From Terriglobia bacterium (GTDB lineage Bacteria > Acidobacteriota > Terriglobia > Terriglobales > Acidobacteriaceae): a DNA stretch of 64,000 bases. Positions within the stretch are counted from its first letter, which is position 1. The number at the start of each line of letters is the position of its first letter. Under the pieces are notes generated by a model. That model had not been told where the DNA came from, made no database searches, and worked only from the letters and a program-made list of their open reading frames with translations. The position numbers were made by a program, and so were the translations under genes. This document shows, in pieces, positions 40,827-44,497 of the stretch. The stretch lies in contig JAIQGE010000012.1 of the NCBI GenBank assembly GCA_020072815.1, forward strand, positions 62,001-126,000, written 5' to 3'.

Positions 40827-41824
40827 TCGGAGTTCCTTTGAACGGCTGGCCTTTGAACTGCTGGTTCTTGGCTTGCTGCCGCTTCTTCCTGGCTTATCAA
40901 GACCCTGCCGCTTGCGTCTTTCGGTTGTTCGTTTTGATTGCGCGCCAAAAGCACGGCGCCCACCGCGCCCAGAATTACGATGATTGCCAGCGCAACCAAG
41001 AGCGGTACCGGCTCCTGCCGGATCAACGCGCCTTCCAGGACGGCAATCACGGGGACGATCAGGCTGATGGTGGAGAGTTGATAGGGCTGCATTTTTTTCA
41101 GCAACCAATAATAAATGACGAAGGCGGCGCACGAGCCAAACAAGGTGAGGAAGACCATGGCCCACAGCGCCGGATGGGTCCACACCGCGTGGCGATGGGC
41201 TTCCAGCGCCCAGGTGGCCCACGCCAGCATCACGCCGCCGAACAACAGTTGCAGCGCCGTGGCCACCACGGAGTCCACGTCGTGCAAGCGAGCTTTGGCG
41301 TATATCGCGGACCAGGAACTCATCAGCATGGCCAGCAGCACCGCGGCTCCGCCCATCATGGCCCGCCCGCTGTAGCTCAGACCGTCAATGAAAACGGTGA
41401 GCAGACCGCCAAAGGCAACCACCATGGCGAACACCGCGCGTCGCGGGACGGTGCGATGGGTCATCATCGGCGTGAACAGGGCCACAGCCAGGGGCATGGC
41501 CGAATAGAGGACGGCGGTCATCGAAGACGTGACGTACTGTTCGGCCCAAAACAGCAGCCCGTAGGGGATGGCAATCATGGTCACGCTCAAGACCAGCAAC
41601 GCGATCCATTGGCCGGGATCACGCGGCCAGCGTTTCCTTTGCGCTGCGGCCAGCGCCGTGAGCAGAGCAGCTGCGGCAAAAAAGCGGATGGCCGCGGCTT
41701 CCAGTGGAGGAATGTCCTGCACCGCGATGCGGATGGCCAGCCAGGTGCTTCCCCAGATCAGGCAAAGCGCAACATAGCCCACCAAGTGGCTGCGGGGAAA
41801 CGATGGCTGGTCAGCGCGGGTCAT
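40823..41824 (-). CDS. EamA/DMT-superfamily metabolite exporter
   Basis: The 333-residue product has ten transmembrane helices in two EamA repeats (VGYVALCLIWGSTWLAIRIA; AFVIYYWLLKKMQPYQLSTI). Members export amino acids or other small metabolites; the substrate is unknown. ATG 41824 begins the conserved part; earlier starts add Pro/Arg-rich residues unlike the family. The C-terminal 35 residues after the last helix are hydrophilic and contain a QxPAVQ repeat. First gene of a three-gene operon. Confidence 0.93.
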   Translation of the reverse strand: MTRADQPSFPRSHLVGYVALCLIWGSTWLAIRIAVQDIPPLEAAAIRFFAAAALLTALAAAQRKRWPRDPGQWIALLVLSVTMIAIPYGLLFWAEQYVTSSMTAVLYSAMPLAVALFTPMMTHRTVPRRAVFAMVVAFGGLLTVFIDGLSYSGRAMMGGAAVLLAMLMSSWSAIYAKARLHDVDSVVATALQLLFGGVMLAWATWALEAHRHAVWTHPALWAMVFLTLFGSCAAFVIYYWLLKKMQPYQLSTISLIVPVIAVLEGALIRQEPVPLLVALAIIVILGAVGAVLLARNQNEQPKDASGRVLISQEEAAASQEPAVQRPAVQRNSE

Positions 41825-41926: not shown

Positions 41927-42089
41927 GGGCAAAGGCCAAATCGGCCACCAGCGGACTGGCTGGAGCGATCTTTGACAACTGAATAGGAAAGCACTTAGGA
42001 GTTGGAAAACTGCAAACCCGCTGGTTTACCGCAAAAGACGCTAACTACGCAAAGAACCAAATGGTTAAGCGATTAAATTTACTCTGTGG

Positions 42090-42113
42090 GATGATTATTC
42101 ACTTGACAAAGGG
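42090..42113 (+). repeat. Left terminal inverted repeat of the IS1595-family element
   Basis: The 24-base end contains GATTATTCACTTGAC at 42093-42107 followed by AAAGGG. It matches the right end at 21 of 24 positions and directly abuts the target duplication. Confidence 0.88.
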
Positions 42114-42139
42114 TGCCGTCTTTGGTAACGTTTTTAATC

Positions 42140-42289
42140 ATGGACGTTACCCATTTCCTTTCTTTGGCTTATCGGTTTCTGACTCGCGTAGCATTCTGCG
42201 AAGGTCGCGCTTTATCCCTGCGACCAGTTTACGGGTCGGTACTCGCTCCAAAGGCGACTTGGGTTTCTTCTGCTTACGAGGCTGCATAA
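42140..42289 (+). CDS. Possible 49-residue ORF coupled to the transposase
   Basis: ATG at 42140 opens a 49-residue frame (begins MDVTHFLSLAYRFLTRVAF) whose TAA shares bases with the transposase start as TAATG. No family is known and no clear ribosome binding site precedes it. The stop-start overlap is what one expects from a translationally coupled leader that would limit transposase synthesis, but chance cannot be excluded. Confidence 0.35.
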   Translation: MDVTHFLSLAYRFLTRVAFCEGRALSLRPVYGSVLAPKATWVSSAYEAA

Positions 42290-43197
42290 TGACCATCCCT
42301 GAAATCAATATTCTTTTTCCTACAGATGCACGTTGCCGTGCGTTGCTTCAACGTCTGCGCTGGCCGGAAGGTGTTATGTGTCCGCGCTGCAAAGACACGC
42401 GAGTTTCTGTGCTTCAGGACTATGGCCGGTTTGAGTGTGTTGGATGTGAGTACCAGTTCACGGTTACCAGCGGAACTATTTTCCATGACTCTCACTTGCC
42501 CCTTACAAAGTGGTTTCTTGCCGTCCTGCTTCTGGTTGAAGCCCGTAAGGGAATCAGCGCGAAACAGTTGCAACGCACAATTGGCATGGGCTACAAAACC
42601 GCGTGGTATCTGTGTCACCGCATCCGGAAAGCTATGGCCGGAGCGCACAAGCCCATGCTGGACGGAACGATTGAAATGGACGAAACCTATGTGGGTGGAA
42701 AGCAACGCGGCCTTGGGCACGGATGGCGCACACGCAAAACAAAGCAAGTAGTCATTGGAATCAGACAGCGCAGCGGAGACGTGCGATTTTTCCATGCAGA
42801 AGACGCCAAAACCGGAACCCTGGCCAAGTACATCAAAGAAAATATCAGCACAGATGTGGACGTGATCGTGACTGACGATCTCCCTGCATATCAGAAAGCC
42901 GTTGGAAAAGCCAAACATGAAACCGTCAATCACACAGCCAAGGAATATGTTCGCGGAGACATTCACACGAACACGGTGGAATCCGCATTCTCTCTCTTGA
43001 AGCGCGGCATTATTGGTACGTGGCATAAAATCAGCGCGAAGCATCTCGCCGCATACCTTGAGGAAATGGAATTCCGATTTAACCGCCGGAAGCGCTCCGA
43101 TTTGTTTGTTGATACCTTGCGTCATATGATTACAGCCAATCCGTTAACTTTTGAAAATTTAACTGCTGCGTCTAAAGAGGAACCTGTGCATGGATAA
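42289..43197 (+). CDS. IS1595-family transposase (ISXO2-like)
   Basis: The 302-residue product has an N-terminal zinc-binding domain (CPRCKDTRVSVLQDYGRFEC to GC; two CxxC pairs) and the ISXO2-like DDE domain. Acidic residues appear in TIEMDETYVGGK and VIVTDDLPAYQ, and the family end motif is NTVESAFSLLKRGIIGTWHK. Length is standard. ATG 42289 is used; the open frame continues upstream to 42061, outside the element, which is fortuitous. It overlaps the next gene by eight bases. Confidence 0.95.
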   Translation: MTIPEINILFPTDARCRALLQRLRWPEGVMCPRCKDTRVSVLQDYGRFECVGCEYQFTVTSGTIFHDSHLPLTKWFLAVLLLVEARKGISAKQLQRTIGMGYKTAWYLCHRIRKAMAGAHKPMLDGTIEMDETYVGGKQRGLGHGWRTRKTKQVVIGIRQRSGDVRFFHAEDAKTGTLAKYIKENISTDVDVIVTDDLPAYQKAVGKAKHETVNHTAKEYVRGDIHTNTVESAFSLLKRGIIGTWHKISAKHLAAYLEEMEFRFNRRKRSDLFVDTLRHMITANPLTFENLTAASKEEPVHG

Positions 43198-43450
43198 TGA
43201 AACTCTTCGAGCCATATTTCAGATGTTCGGCGACAAACTCTACGACTTGCAGGTAGGCTTTGCTGCCATGTTCAACATGTGCATAGATCACCATGCATTC
43301 ACAGAGCGGGCTTTTCTGGCGGAGAAGGGCCGACTTGAGGCTCTTCCCGATTTTCAGAAGCTTCGAGAAACTTTGGAGAAGCTGCGTAGCTCCAAGGAGG
43401 AGGCAGACTTTGAATCATTTCTGCGAGCCTACAAAGGGCCTGTTCAATAG
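43190..43450 (+). CDS. Passenger protein of unknown function
   Basis: The 86-residue product (starts MDNETLRAIFQMFGDKLYDL) is mostly helical and acidic, with a likely coiled-coil in the second half (LEALPDFQKLRETLEKLRSS). Its ATG overlaps the transposase end by eight bases, so the two are co-translated. No family was recognised. It may be a transposition accessory factor or a cargo gene. Confidence 0.7.
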   Translation: MDNETLRAIFQMFGDKLYDLQVGFAAMFNMCIDHHAFTERAFLAEKGRLEALPDFQKLRETLEKLRSSKEEADFESFLRAYKGPVQ

Positions 43451-43493
43451 TCCGTCTTCTAGGATTCAGCCAACGTATAATCTGTAAGTTCAT

Positions 43494-44405
43494 TTAGGGG
43501 AGACCTCGTTTCGCATCTCGGGTTTTTGTTTCAGAGAGTTTTTTACGTTCCCGCCGTTGTTGCATTTTCTTAAACACTTTATTGACTTGATCTGTGAACG
43601 CTGGACCGGGCGATTCCAGCTTCTTTGAAAATGATTGGATAGTCTCAGATACCTTCATGCGTTGAATTAGAATTTGCATTGAGGAATCAAATGTTTTTAG
43701 TGCAGATTCGGCGGATTCAGATGTAGCACTAGGCCGAGATATAGCCAATAATAAATCCGATACAGCTTCATCAATGTCTGCGGATTGCTGCTCGGCAATA
43801 GTGATTTGATAGGTTTCTACGCTGCTCATTTCGCCGGTTGCCATCAGTTTTACAAACTCACTATCTCCACCACAAGCATCGTCATAACTCTTGATTCTTT
43901 GGAGAGCGTTTATGGCAATCGTCAAAACTTCATCAAAATCTTTGTCTGACTCTTGGTAAAGGGAGCGAATGAGATAGTGTGCTAAATATGCACCAGCCCC
44001 TACACAATCGTAACCGCGTAATTCATTAACGGCAGTGTCTTGAGTAGTAAGTAATTTTAAGCCGCCTGATGGAGACCAGAGGCCAATTAGGTATTGGACT
44101 TCCGGCTTGTCGGGATGGGGAAAGAGATATCCATGATGCAAAGTTCTCACAGTATCTCTTACAATCTTGGCCATCCCCAGCGTAGTACGTTTTGCCGCTG
44201 GAATAGCCTTAATGCCAGATTCAATCGCCTGCATACCCATTCGTGCATACATCACATCGCCAGCAATAACGATTACAGACTTGGAACCATCGCTATAAGT
44301 TTCATGGAATATCTTGGAGGCTGATAGTTTCATCTGCGCTGAATGCTTTTTGTCGGCACATAACAGAATTCCATCTTTAAAAATGAACCCTGCGGCTATC
44401 GTCAC
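43494..44405 (-). CDS. Proteasome-like Ntn hydrolase carried by the IS element
   Basis: The 303-residue product begins MTIAAGFIFKDGILLCADKK. After Met removal the N-terminal Thr is residue 1, with Asp at position 17 and Lys at 30 in ASKIF. This matches the Thr1/Asp17/Lys33 plan of proteasome beta subunits and HslV. VIVIAGDVMYARMGMQAIE resembles the second strand-helix unit of that fold, and YDCVGAGAYLAHYLI the later GSG-type turn. Residues 215-303 form an added helical, charged tail (VFKKMQQRRERKKLSETKT). It is the last feature before the right inverted repeat and reads opposite to the transposase. No proteasome ATPase is nearby. Fold assignment is by motif only. Confidence 0.75.
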   Translation of the reverse strand: MTIAAGFIFKDGILLCADKKHSAQMKLSASKIFHETYSDGSKSVIVIAGDVMYARMGMQAIESGIKAIPAAKRTTLGMAKIVRDTVRTLHHGYLFPHPDKPEVQYLIGLWSPSGGLKLLTTQDTAVNELRGYDCVGAGAYLAHYLIRSLYQESDKDFDEVLTIAINALQRIKSYDDACGGDSEFVKLMATGEMSSVETYQITIAEQQSADIDEAVSDLLLAISRPSATSESAESALKTFDSSMQILIQRMKVSETIQSFSKKLESPGPAFTDQVNKVFKKMQQRRERKKLSETKTRDAKRGLP

Positions 44406-44465
44406 GGGAGTCCTCCAAGGCAGCGGTCTTTCTTGCCGTCTCCTTGGATAATAGGCACAGTTGTC

Positions 44466-44489
44466 CCCTTGGTCAAGTGAATAATCCTG
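44466..44489 (-). repeat. Right terminal inverted repeat of the IS1595-family element
   Basis: Read on the minus strand from 44489 it gives CAGGATTATTCACTTGAC then CAAGGG, matching the left end apart from three positions. It abuts the second CTCTGTGG copy at 44490. Confidence 0.88.
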
Positions 44490-44497
44490 CTCTGTGG

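Follow-up and report, generated by a model that had tools for sequence, protein, structure and literature searches.

The window, i.e., the whole stretch of 64,000 nucleotides analyzed here, contains a complete 2.4-kb IS1595-family element (positions 42090–44489), inside which one gene, encoding a predicted proteasome-like hydrolase, faces the transposase gene. We consider it likely, with a probability of roughly 0.6, that this element is a transporter IS whose exchangeable cargo, a proteasome-like peptidase or an enzyme with a related Ntn activity, benefits the host or the element rather than serving transposition. Judging solely by the pattern of exchange and diversity, the cargo most plausibly has a function of the defense or competition type that favors diverse variants.

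The IS1595-family element and its proteasome-like hydrolase

The element and its immediate borders comprise the following features.

42082–42089, no strand: left target-site duplication CTCTGTGG, read directly and by script
42090–42113, forward strand: left terminal inverted repeat (core 42093–42113), containing TTGACA reading into the element
42289–43197, forward strand: IS1595-family transposase, 302 aa, with zinc ribbon and DDE domain (Pfam, NCBIfam)
43190–43450, forward strand: ORF of 86 aa, its start codon overlapping the stop codon of the transposase (ATGGATAA)
43494–44405, reverse strand: predicted proteasome-like Ntn hydrolase, 303 aa (PF00227, PDB profile, model and Foldseek, conserved Thr1/Asp17/Lys)
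44412–44416, reverse strand: Shine–Dalgarno-like GGAGG before the GTG start of the hydrolase (sequence)
44448–44453, reverse strand: −10-like TATTAT, with 17-nt spacing to the −35 (promoter-like site scoring)
44466–44489, reverse strand: right terminal inverted repeat (core 44466–44486), containing the −35-like TTGACC (44471–44476) for the hydrolase
44490–44497, no strand: right target-site duplication CTCTGTGG, read directly and by script

The limits of the element follow from the exact 8-bp duplication CTCTGTGG, which flanks both ends and thus fixes the tips of the 21-bp terminal repeats (42093–42113 and 44466–44486, 95% complementary); the resulting interval is wider than 43494–44405, the one given in the preliminary description. 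The transposase matches NF033547 with E = 8.5e-60 (202 bits, the cut-off being 75), and the Pfam domains PF12762 (1.6e-36) and PF12760 (2.3e-11). Target duplications of 8 bp are a feature of the IS1595 family, and the window element combines such a duplication with a DDE transposase and terminal inverted repeats, as expected of the family, while the gene unrelated to transposition between its repeats makes it a transporter IS. The preliminary description, which had placed the hydrolase inside the inverted repeats of an IS1595-family element, was correct in this respect.

Relative to the gene order in the same genus, the element is inserted. The right-hand flanking gene is present in seven relatives from this genus; four of these have the left-hand flanking gene at distances of approximately 113, 113, 747, and 883 bp from it, compared to approximately 2,983 bp in the window (distances derived from tblastn ends and an ATG assumed at 41824), and in the remaining three it falls outside the stretch compared. 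When the empty site was joined and compared with the relatives, the alignment extended no further than 30 bases, and it is gene order alone that evidences the insertion. The 86-aa ORF has no match in Pfam, NCBIfam, or PADLOC, and tblastn finds it solely in copies of this same locus.

The hydrolase ORF starts with GTG, and the N-terminus of its product reads M-T-I-A-A-G. As already pointed out in the preliminary description, the Met–Thr start is accompanied by catalytic-type residues Thr1, Asp17, and Lys30 (numbered after Met removal), and in the profile alignment Lys30 falls on Lys33 of a solved proteasome beta subunit. The Pfam Proteasome domain (PF00227) is matched with E = 1.5e-8 (35 bits, cut-off 22.4). 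The AlphaFold2 model, built from a ten-row alignment that included nine relatives, has a mean pLDDT of 79 and pTM of 0.71; a single-sequence model with a mean pLDDT of 38 was discarded. In this model, a core (approximately residues 1–195) is followed by helices (approximately residues 198–299), in agreement with the helical tail proposed earlier. By ten-residue blocks, pLDDT is mostly 80–96 in the core, 59–68 in three loops, 47–78 in the tail, and lower in the last residues. The fold search suggested together with the claim of an Ntn hydrolase yielded the expected relatives: Foldseek reports 1,125 matches to PDB at E ≤ 0.001, with archaeal proteasome chains of about 200 residues at the top (by target length, TM is 0.83 for 1pma, E = 2.2e-11, and 0.79 for 1j2q) and Anbu among the first ten.

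A profile of 48 homologues matches 335 distinct PDB sequences with E values not exceeding 0.01, the best being 6e-16, in a register that places the second position on the mature Thr1, and the Lys, on Lys33. In the 48-row alignment, Asp17 and the Lys are retained in all rows, while position 1 is Thr in 47 rows and Ser in one. The Thr count is partly a matter of choice, because candidate start codons were favored if Thr came next; no such preference applied to Asp and Lys, and according to a rough estimate a start codon followed by Thr would occur by chance in fewer than one in ten such stretches. Against a mean column identity of 18%, the invariant positions are Asp18 and Lys31 (Met counted). 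Taking the sequences and the model together, the protein is a proteasome-like Ntn hydrolase with the predicted fold and an intact Thr1/Asp17/Lys33-type set, and the anticipated retention of this set in homologues, often inside IS elements, is indeed seen.

The supporting residues of the 20S proteasome, Asp166, Ser129, and Ser169, correspond in the profile alignment to residues 175, 139, and 178 of the window hydrolase, respectively, and are not conserved among the 48 rows: Asp is found at 175 in eight rows, Ser at 139 in four, and Ser at 178 in none, the latter position being occupied by Cys (30) or Val (18). The alignment is loose in this region, and 15 of the 48 rows have Asp at 176. Going by the aligned sequences, this is a real departure from the 20S proteasome, and hence catalysis may differ. 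The window hydrolase also scores far below the cut-offs of the NCBIfam equivalog models for HslV and the 20S proteasome (best TIGR03634, 25 bits versus 224). A much stronger PF00227 match (91 bits) is encoded on another contig of the same genome (G000:C8), and probably is the genome's own HslV. With PADLOC, the window hydrolase has no match at E ≤ 0.05.

The GC content of the hydrolase gene is 43.5%, compared to 58.9% in the window. In the 130 nt upstream of it, the best promoter-like site consists of TTGACC in the terminal repeat, a 17-nt spacer, and TATTAT, and none of 100 shuffles reaches its score. Among 20 loci with a recognizable repeat, the best promoter-like site starts within the repeat in 18; the score is reached by at most five of 100 shuffles in only ten of these 18, and thus we claim with moderate confidence that the terminal repeat supplies a candidate promoter for the hydrolase. 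Of 11 close pairs tried, three were usable by both methods, with dN/dS (NG86) of 0.09, 0.16, and 0.11.

Recurrence of the hydrolase on IS elements

A profile search of 300 genomes of the family identified hydrolase homologues in 56, at 65 places in total. The search profile comprised five sequences, three IS-linked and one beside an IS scrap, and hence may favor IS-linked homologues. The 65 places hold 66 ORFs, since one gene (L045) is split into two, and several places end at contig edges; the alignment used above contains 48 of the 66, short, split, distant, or startless ORFs having been left out, as well as L073 and L081. An IS1595 or IS1-type transposase ORF is found within 1.5 kb at 36 of the 65 places, and at 30 of these it lies downstream of the hydrolase and faces it. 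IS1595 transposases account for 22 places (20 downstream and facing, two on the same strand), and IS1-type transposases, for 14 (ten downstream and facing, two upstream on the other strand, and two on the same strand). In many elements the 3′ ends of the hydrolase and transposase genes overlap or lie within about 40 bp.

At the remaining 29 places, no IS1595 or IS1-type transposase ORF reaching 100 aa lies within 1.5 kb. Four of these 29 (L006, L044, L061, L087) have a transposase scrap beside an open hydrolase gene; the one in L006, with a terminal repeat upstream, was read by eye and is not reported by tblastn at E = 1e-4. In three others (L047, L089, L090) a terminal repeat alone accompanies the hydrolase. 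Neither was detected by these tests at the rest, several of which are truncated by contig edges.

Terminal repeats together with an exact duplication of at least 8 bp enclose the hydrolase in 16 of 34 real flank pairs, as compared to two of 1,122 mismatched pairs; repeats alone occur in 258 of the mismatched pairs, because the elements share their ends. An added search with one IS1-type repeat (similar to GGTAGTGGGTCAGTTT) increased the total to 20 of 34 (14 of 20 IS1595 and six of 14 IS1-type elements), the general repeat finder having missed most IS1-type ends and the mismatched-pair control covering the first method only. Five of the 34 elements (L043, L050, L056, L060, L069) are cut on one side by a contig end. 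The three elements at L040, L052, and L072 are inserted in a GGCACGACTTCAGTCGTGCC-type palindrome and have a duplication of 10 bp (GACTTCAGTC or GACTTTAGTC), possibly reflecting a target preference. In a separate observation, an IS1-type element contains a 100-aa lysine-rich ORF beside its transposase (L009:10441–10743, reverse strand).

Across the phylum, homologues were found in 31 of 396 genomes. Of 26 new places, 20 were considered, at least four of them from the same family as the window, and none has an IS1595 or IS1-type transposase in the stretch examined. At L183 (373–1647 and 2013–3044, both forward strand), an IS-free homologue from another family is located near an ORF that by eye resembles a patatin-type lipase. 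A search of genome_contigs with the alignment A3 yielded ten loci, all from Acidobacteria, Acidobacteriaceae, Acidobacteriales, or Terriglobia; at least seven of them (L100, L101, L103–L107) are loci already counted and do not constitute independent evidence. The same alignment identified no locus in viral_contigs, and single-sequence scans for homologues produced no match in either collection. With tblastn, no relative of the window hydrolase was found in plasmids or phages, nor of those from L040 and L085 in plasmids, nor of that from L046 in phages.

The cargo slot can also be approached starting from the transposases. A scan of 150 genomes listed 52 IS1595 matches, from which the best locus of each of 30 genomes was used. 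Fifteen of these 30 loci have downstream sequence and a transposase that is 61% or more identical to that of the window; ten of the 15 carry the hydrolase according to the profile of the 48 homologues, three (L128, L133, L138) have a divergent ORF that starts alike in the slot, and two (L131, with only 727 bp of downstream sequence, and L136), something else. In a profile comparison with the 48 homologues, the probability is 89% for L133, 82% for L138 (second half only), 16% for L128, and 0.1% for the control, L136. At lower identity, one of 12 IS1595 loci with downstream sequence (L140) has the hydrolase. The corresponding list for the IS1-type contained 57 matches, and 30 loci were chosen from it; out of 27 with downstream sequence, three carry the hydrolase and one more, a divergent one (L161, 80%). 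The window's genome encodes 11 IS1595 transposases; the two nearest to that of the window (100% and 72% identity) are accompanied by the hydrolase, and the other nine (36–39%), by none detectable with the same profile. Thus, this IS1595 subgroup carries the hydrolase more often than any other cargo, though not exclusively.

Other contents of the slot deserve mention. In L136, L141, L142, and L112 it is filled by ORFs that look by eye like membrane proteins and have no Pfam match. In the window's genome, a DUF4145 ORF (L113:2591–3346, reverse strand) faces another IS1595 transposase and matches PD-T7-4 in PADLOC (E = 7.4e-12), with no target duplication found there; such cargo is a weak hint at defense.

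Exchange of the hydrolase and its possible role

The hydrolase ORF is replaced while its flanks stay alike, and this happens across two transposase families. For 18 of the 22 IS1595 loci, the others having a weak transposase match or no start, the 153 pairwise comparisons yield 53–95% identity (mean 68%) for transposases and 11–49% (mean 21%) for hydrolases, with rho of −0.15; the 91 pairs formed by 14 IS1-type elements average 70% for transposases and 22% for hydrolases, the latter ranging from 14 to 75%, with rho of 0.13. Thus, in L040 and L072 the transposases are 95% and the hydrolases 22% identical, and for the window and L098 from the same genome the values are 72 and 14%. The counter-case is L050 and L060 from one genome, with 95% identical transposases and 75% identical hydrolases.

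At the DNA level, L040 and L072 are alike over the terminal repeat (89%) and the transposase (86%), and within the hydrolase ORF the similarity is confined to the last bases. The same arrangement, with similar ends and transposase and nothing within the hydrolase beyond its 3′ end, is observed for six of seven element pairs, the seventh, L075/L080, having one similar piece of 74 nt inside the hydrolase. Conversely, the hydrolases of L007 (IS1-type) and L040 (IS1595) are 56% identical, and the DNA similarity begins at the start codon. Positive selection was considered as the source of the diversity and is disfavored: with flanks of L040 and L072 at 86–89% enclosing an unalignable ORF, point changes can hardly explain it.

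The hydrolase tree (50 rows) implies at least ten switches between IS1595 and IS1-type; firm branches alone force six changes for IS1595 and three for IS1-type, each label being set against all other rows. Some clustering on the tree is seen for the IS1-type label (24 of 500 shuffles are as low) and none for the IS1595 label (457 of 500); scrap loci were labeled by hand, L006 and L061 as IS1595, L044 and L087 as IS1-type. With 12 of 47 branches starred and many long ends, it is the mixing, rather than the branch order, that can be trusted.

Since the ORF is replaced in elements of two transposase families, a cargo role under pressure for variation is favored over a role in transposition, and this bears on a role considered in the preliminary description, regulation of the transposase amount. 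A hydrolase belonging to the transposition machinery, which would degrade or process its own transposase and limit transposition, agrees with the downstream, facing position at 30 of the 65 places, with the 3′ ends that overlap or nearly touch, and with L050 and L060 being alike in both genes. Since transposases as close as those of L040 and L072 are coupled with such dissimilar hydrolases, a transposase-specific regulator is quite improbable; besides, one hydrolase group serves both IS1-type and IS1595 transposases, and in L136, where the IS1595 element possesses both terminal repeats and a target duplication, the slot is occupied by an unrelated ORF. Another role suggested there, addiction, in which a toxin-like gene would penalize cells that lose the element, would suit a single, compact gene that occurs in diverse versions and is preceded by its own promoter-like site. 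We regard it as very unlikely: no conserved partner gene supports it, the sole extra ORF checked (the 86-aa one, by homology) having no homologue in the other loci compared, and the overlapping or closely spaced hydrolase and transposase ends in many elements also argue against it.

An ordinary accessory peptidase beneficial to the host, e.g., in peptide turnover or stress, could have been captured several times, with the diversity reflecting age and a large chromosomal pool of homologues rather than an arms race. This explanation is consistent with the homologues, both in the family and beyond it, that have no transposase close by, with the four loci that retain an open hydrolase beside a transposase scrap, and with purifying selection in the three usable pairs; by itself it leaves the repeated refilling of one slot with the same enzyme family unaccounted for; we consider it unlikely. 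As for an accidental link, with the hydrolase being a chromosomal neighbor or a chance ORF, the 29 places without a transposase ORF of these kinds nearby might be taken to favor it. The enclosing repeats and duplications in 20 of 34 elements (two of 1,122 in the control for the first method), together with the proteasome-like fold and conserved catalytic residues, leave it a negligible chance in general, and for the window it is refuted by the repeats, the duplication, and the gene order.

The preferred reading, a transporter IS with an exchangeable peptidase, would work as follows. The element would move by means of its own DDE transposase, and the cargo slot, bounded by one of the terminal repeats and the stop codon of the transposase gene, would accommodate one gene facing the transposase. 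As the promoter-like −35 lies within the terminal repeat, the hydrolase could be expressed wherever the element lands. The protein would be made without a propeptide, so that removal of Met exposes Thr1; by analogy with Anbu, its subunits may assemble through the core and the helical tail; and the enzyme would act as a cargo peptidase or a related Ntn enzyme for the host or the element, host benefit being among the roles suggested in the preliminary description. A more specific variant, which is conceivable though doubtful, is that two acidobacterial IS groups share a hypervariable hydrolase pool as a proteolytic immune or exclusion system, its variants being aimed at different proteins of phages or mobile elements. 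If so, the IS pays its way by arming the host, and a family with the proteasome fold is kept and spread by simple IS.

Comparison with known systems

HslV and Anbu start with Met–Thr and have no propeptide, and the window hydrolase shares this start; more generally, it resembles proteasome beta subunits, HslV, and Anbu in the predicted fold and in the register of Thr1, Asp17, and Lys33. It differs from them in that it has 12–20% identity to the solved chains compared, falls far below the NCBIfam equivalog cut-offs, and is IS-borne. Anbu has a C-terminal helix beyond the core, and the fifth helix holds its subunits together (PMC8665760); the model of the window hydrolase likewise has helices C-terminal to the core.

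Cargo on a simple IS is usually taken to be an exception. In the IS1595 group considered here, by contrast, a single enzyme family occurs as cargo more often than any other; its body turns over much more rapidly than the transposase does, with the catalytic set preserved. Why a mobile element should have a proteasome-like hydrolase on board thus becomes a testable question. Passenger genes on IS elements are known from two papers that cite the IS1595 paper, Siguier et al., 2009 (PMC3129680, PMC7986276). The window element is similar to transporter IS (tIS) of the IS1595 family in its DDE transposase, terminal repeats, 8-bp duplications, and one passenger, and differs from them in that one hypervariable enzyme family fills the slot in most elements of the subgroup and is common to an IS1-type group. 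A literature search covering titles and the openings of abstracts in one open library revealed no proteasome-like IS passenger; the passenger list of Siguier et al. (2009) could name one.

According to the part of the text consulted, Fuchs et al. (2021) reported 22 further proteasome homologues, phage-borne PPH and AAH among these, and no genomic context suggestive of function (PMC8665760). Compared by these descriptions, the acidobacterial hydrolases are likewise divergent prokaryotic members of the group, some of which are phage-mobile, with variable C-termini, and differ in residing on IS elements; words beginning with "transpos" or "acidobacteri" are absent from the text of that survey examined (PMC8665760). 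Thus, with respect to that part of the 2021 survey (PMC8665760), the IS link provides a genomic context for one group of proteasome homologues, and, if the activity is proteolytic and variant-specific, this group may reveal a new kind of defense or a new use of the proteasome fold.
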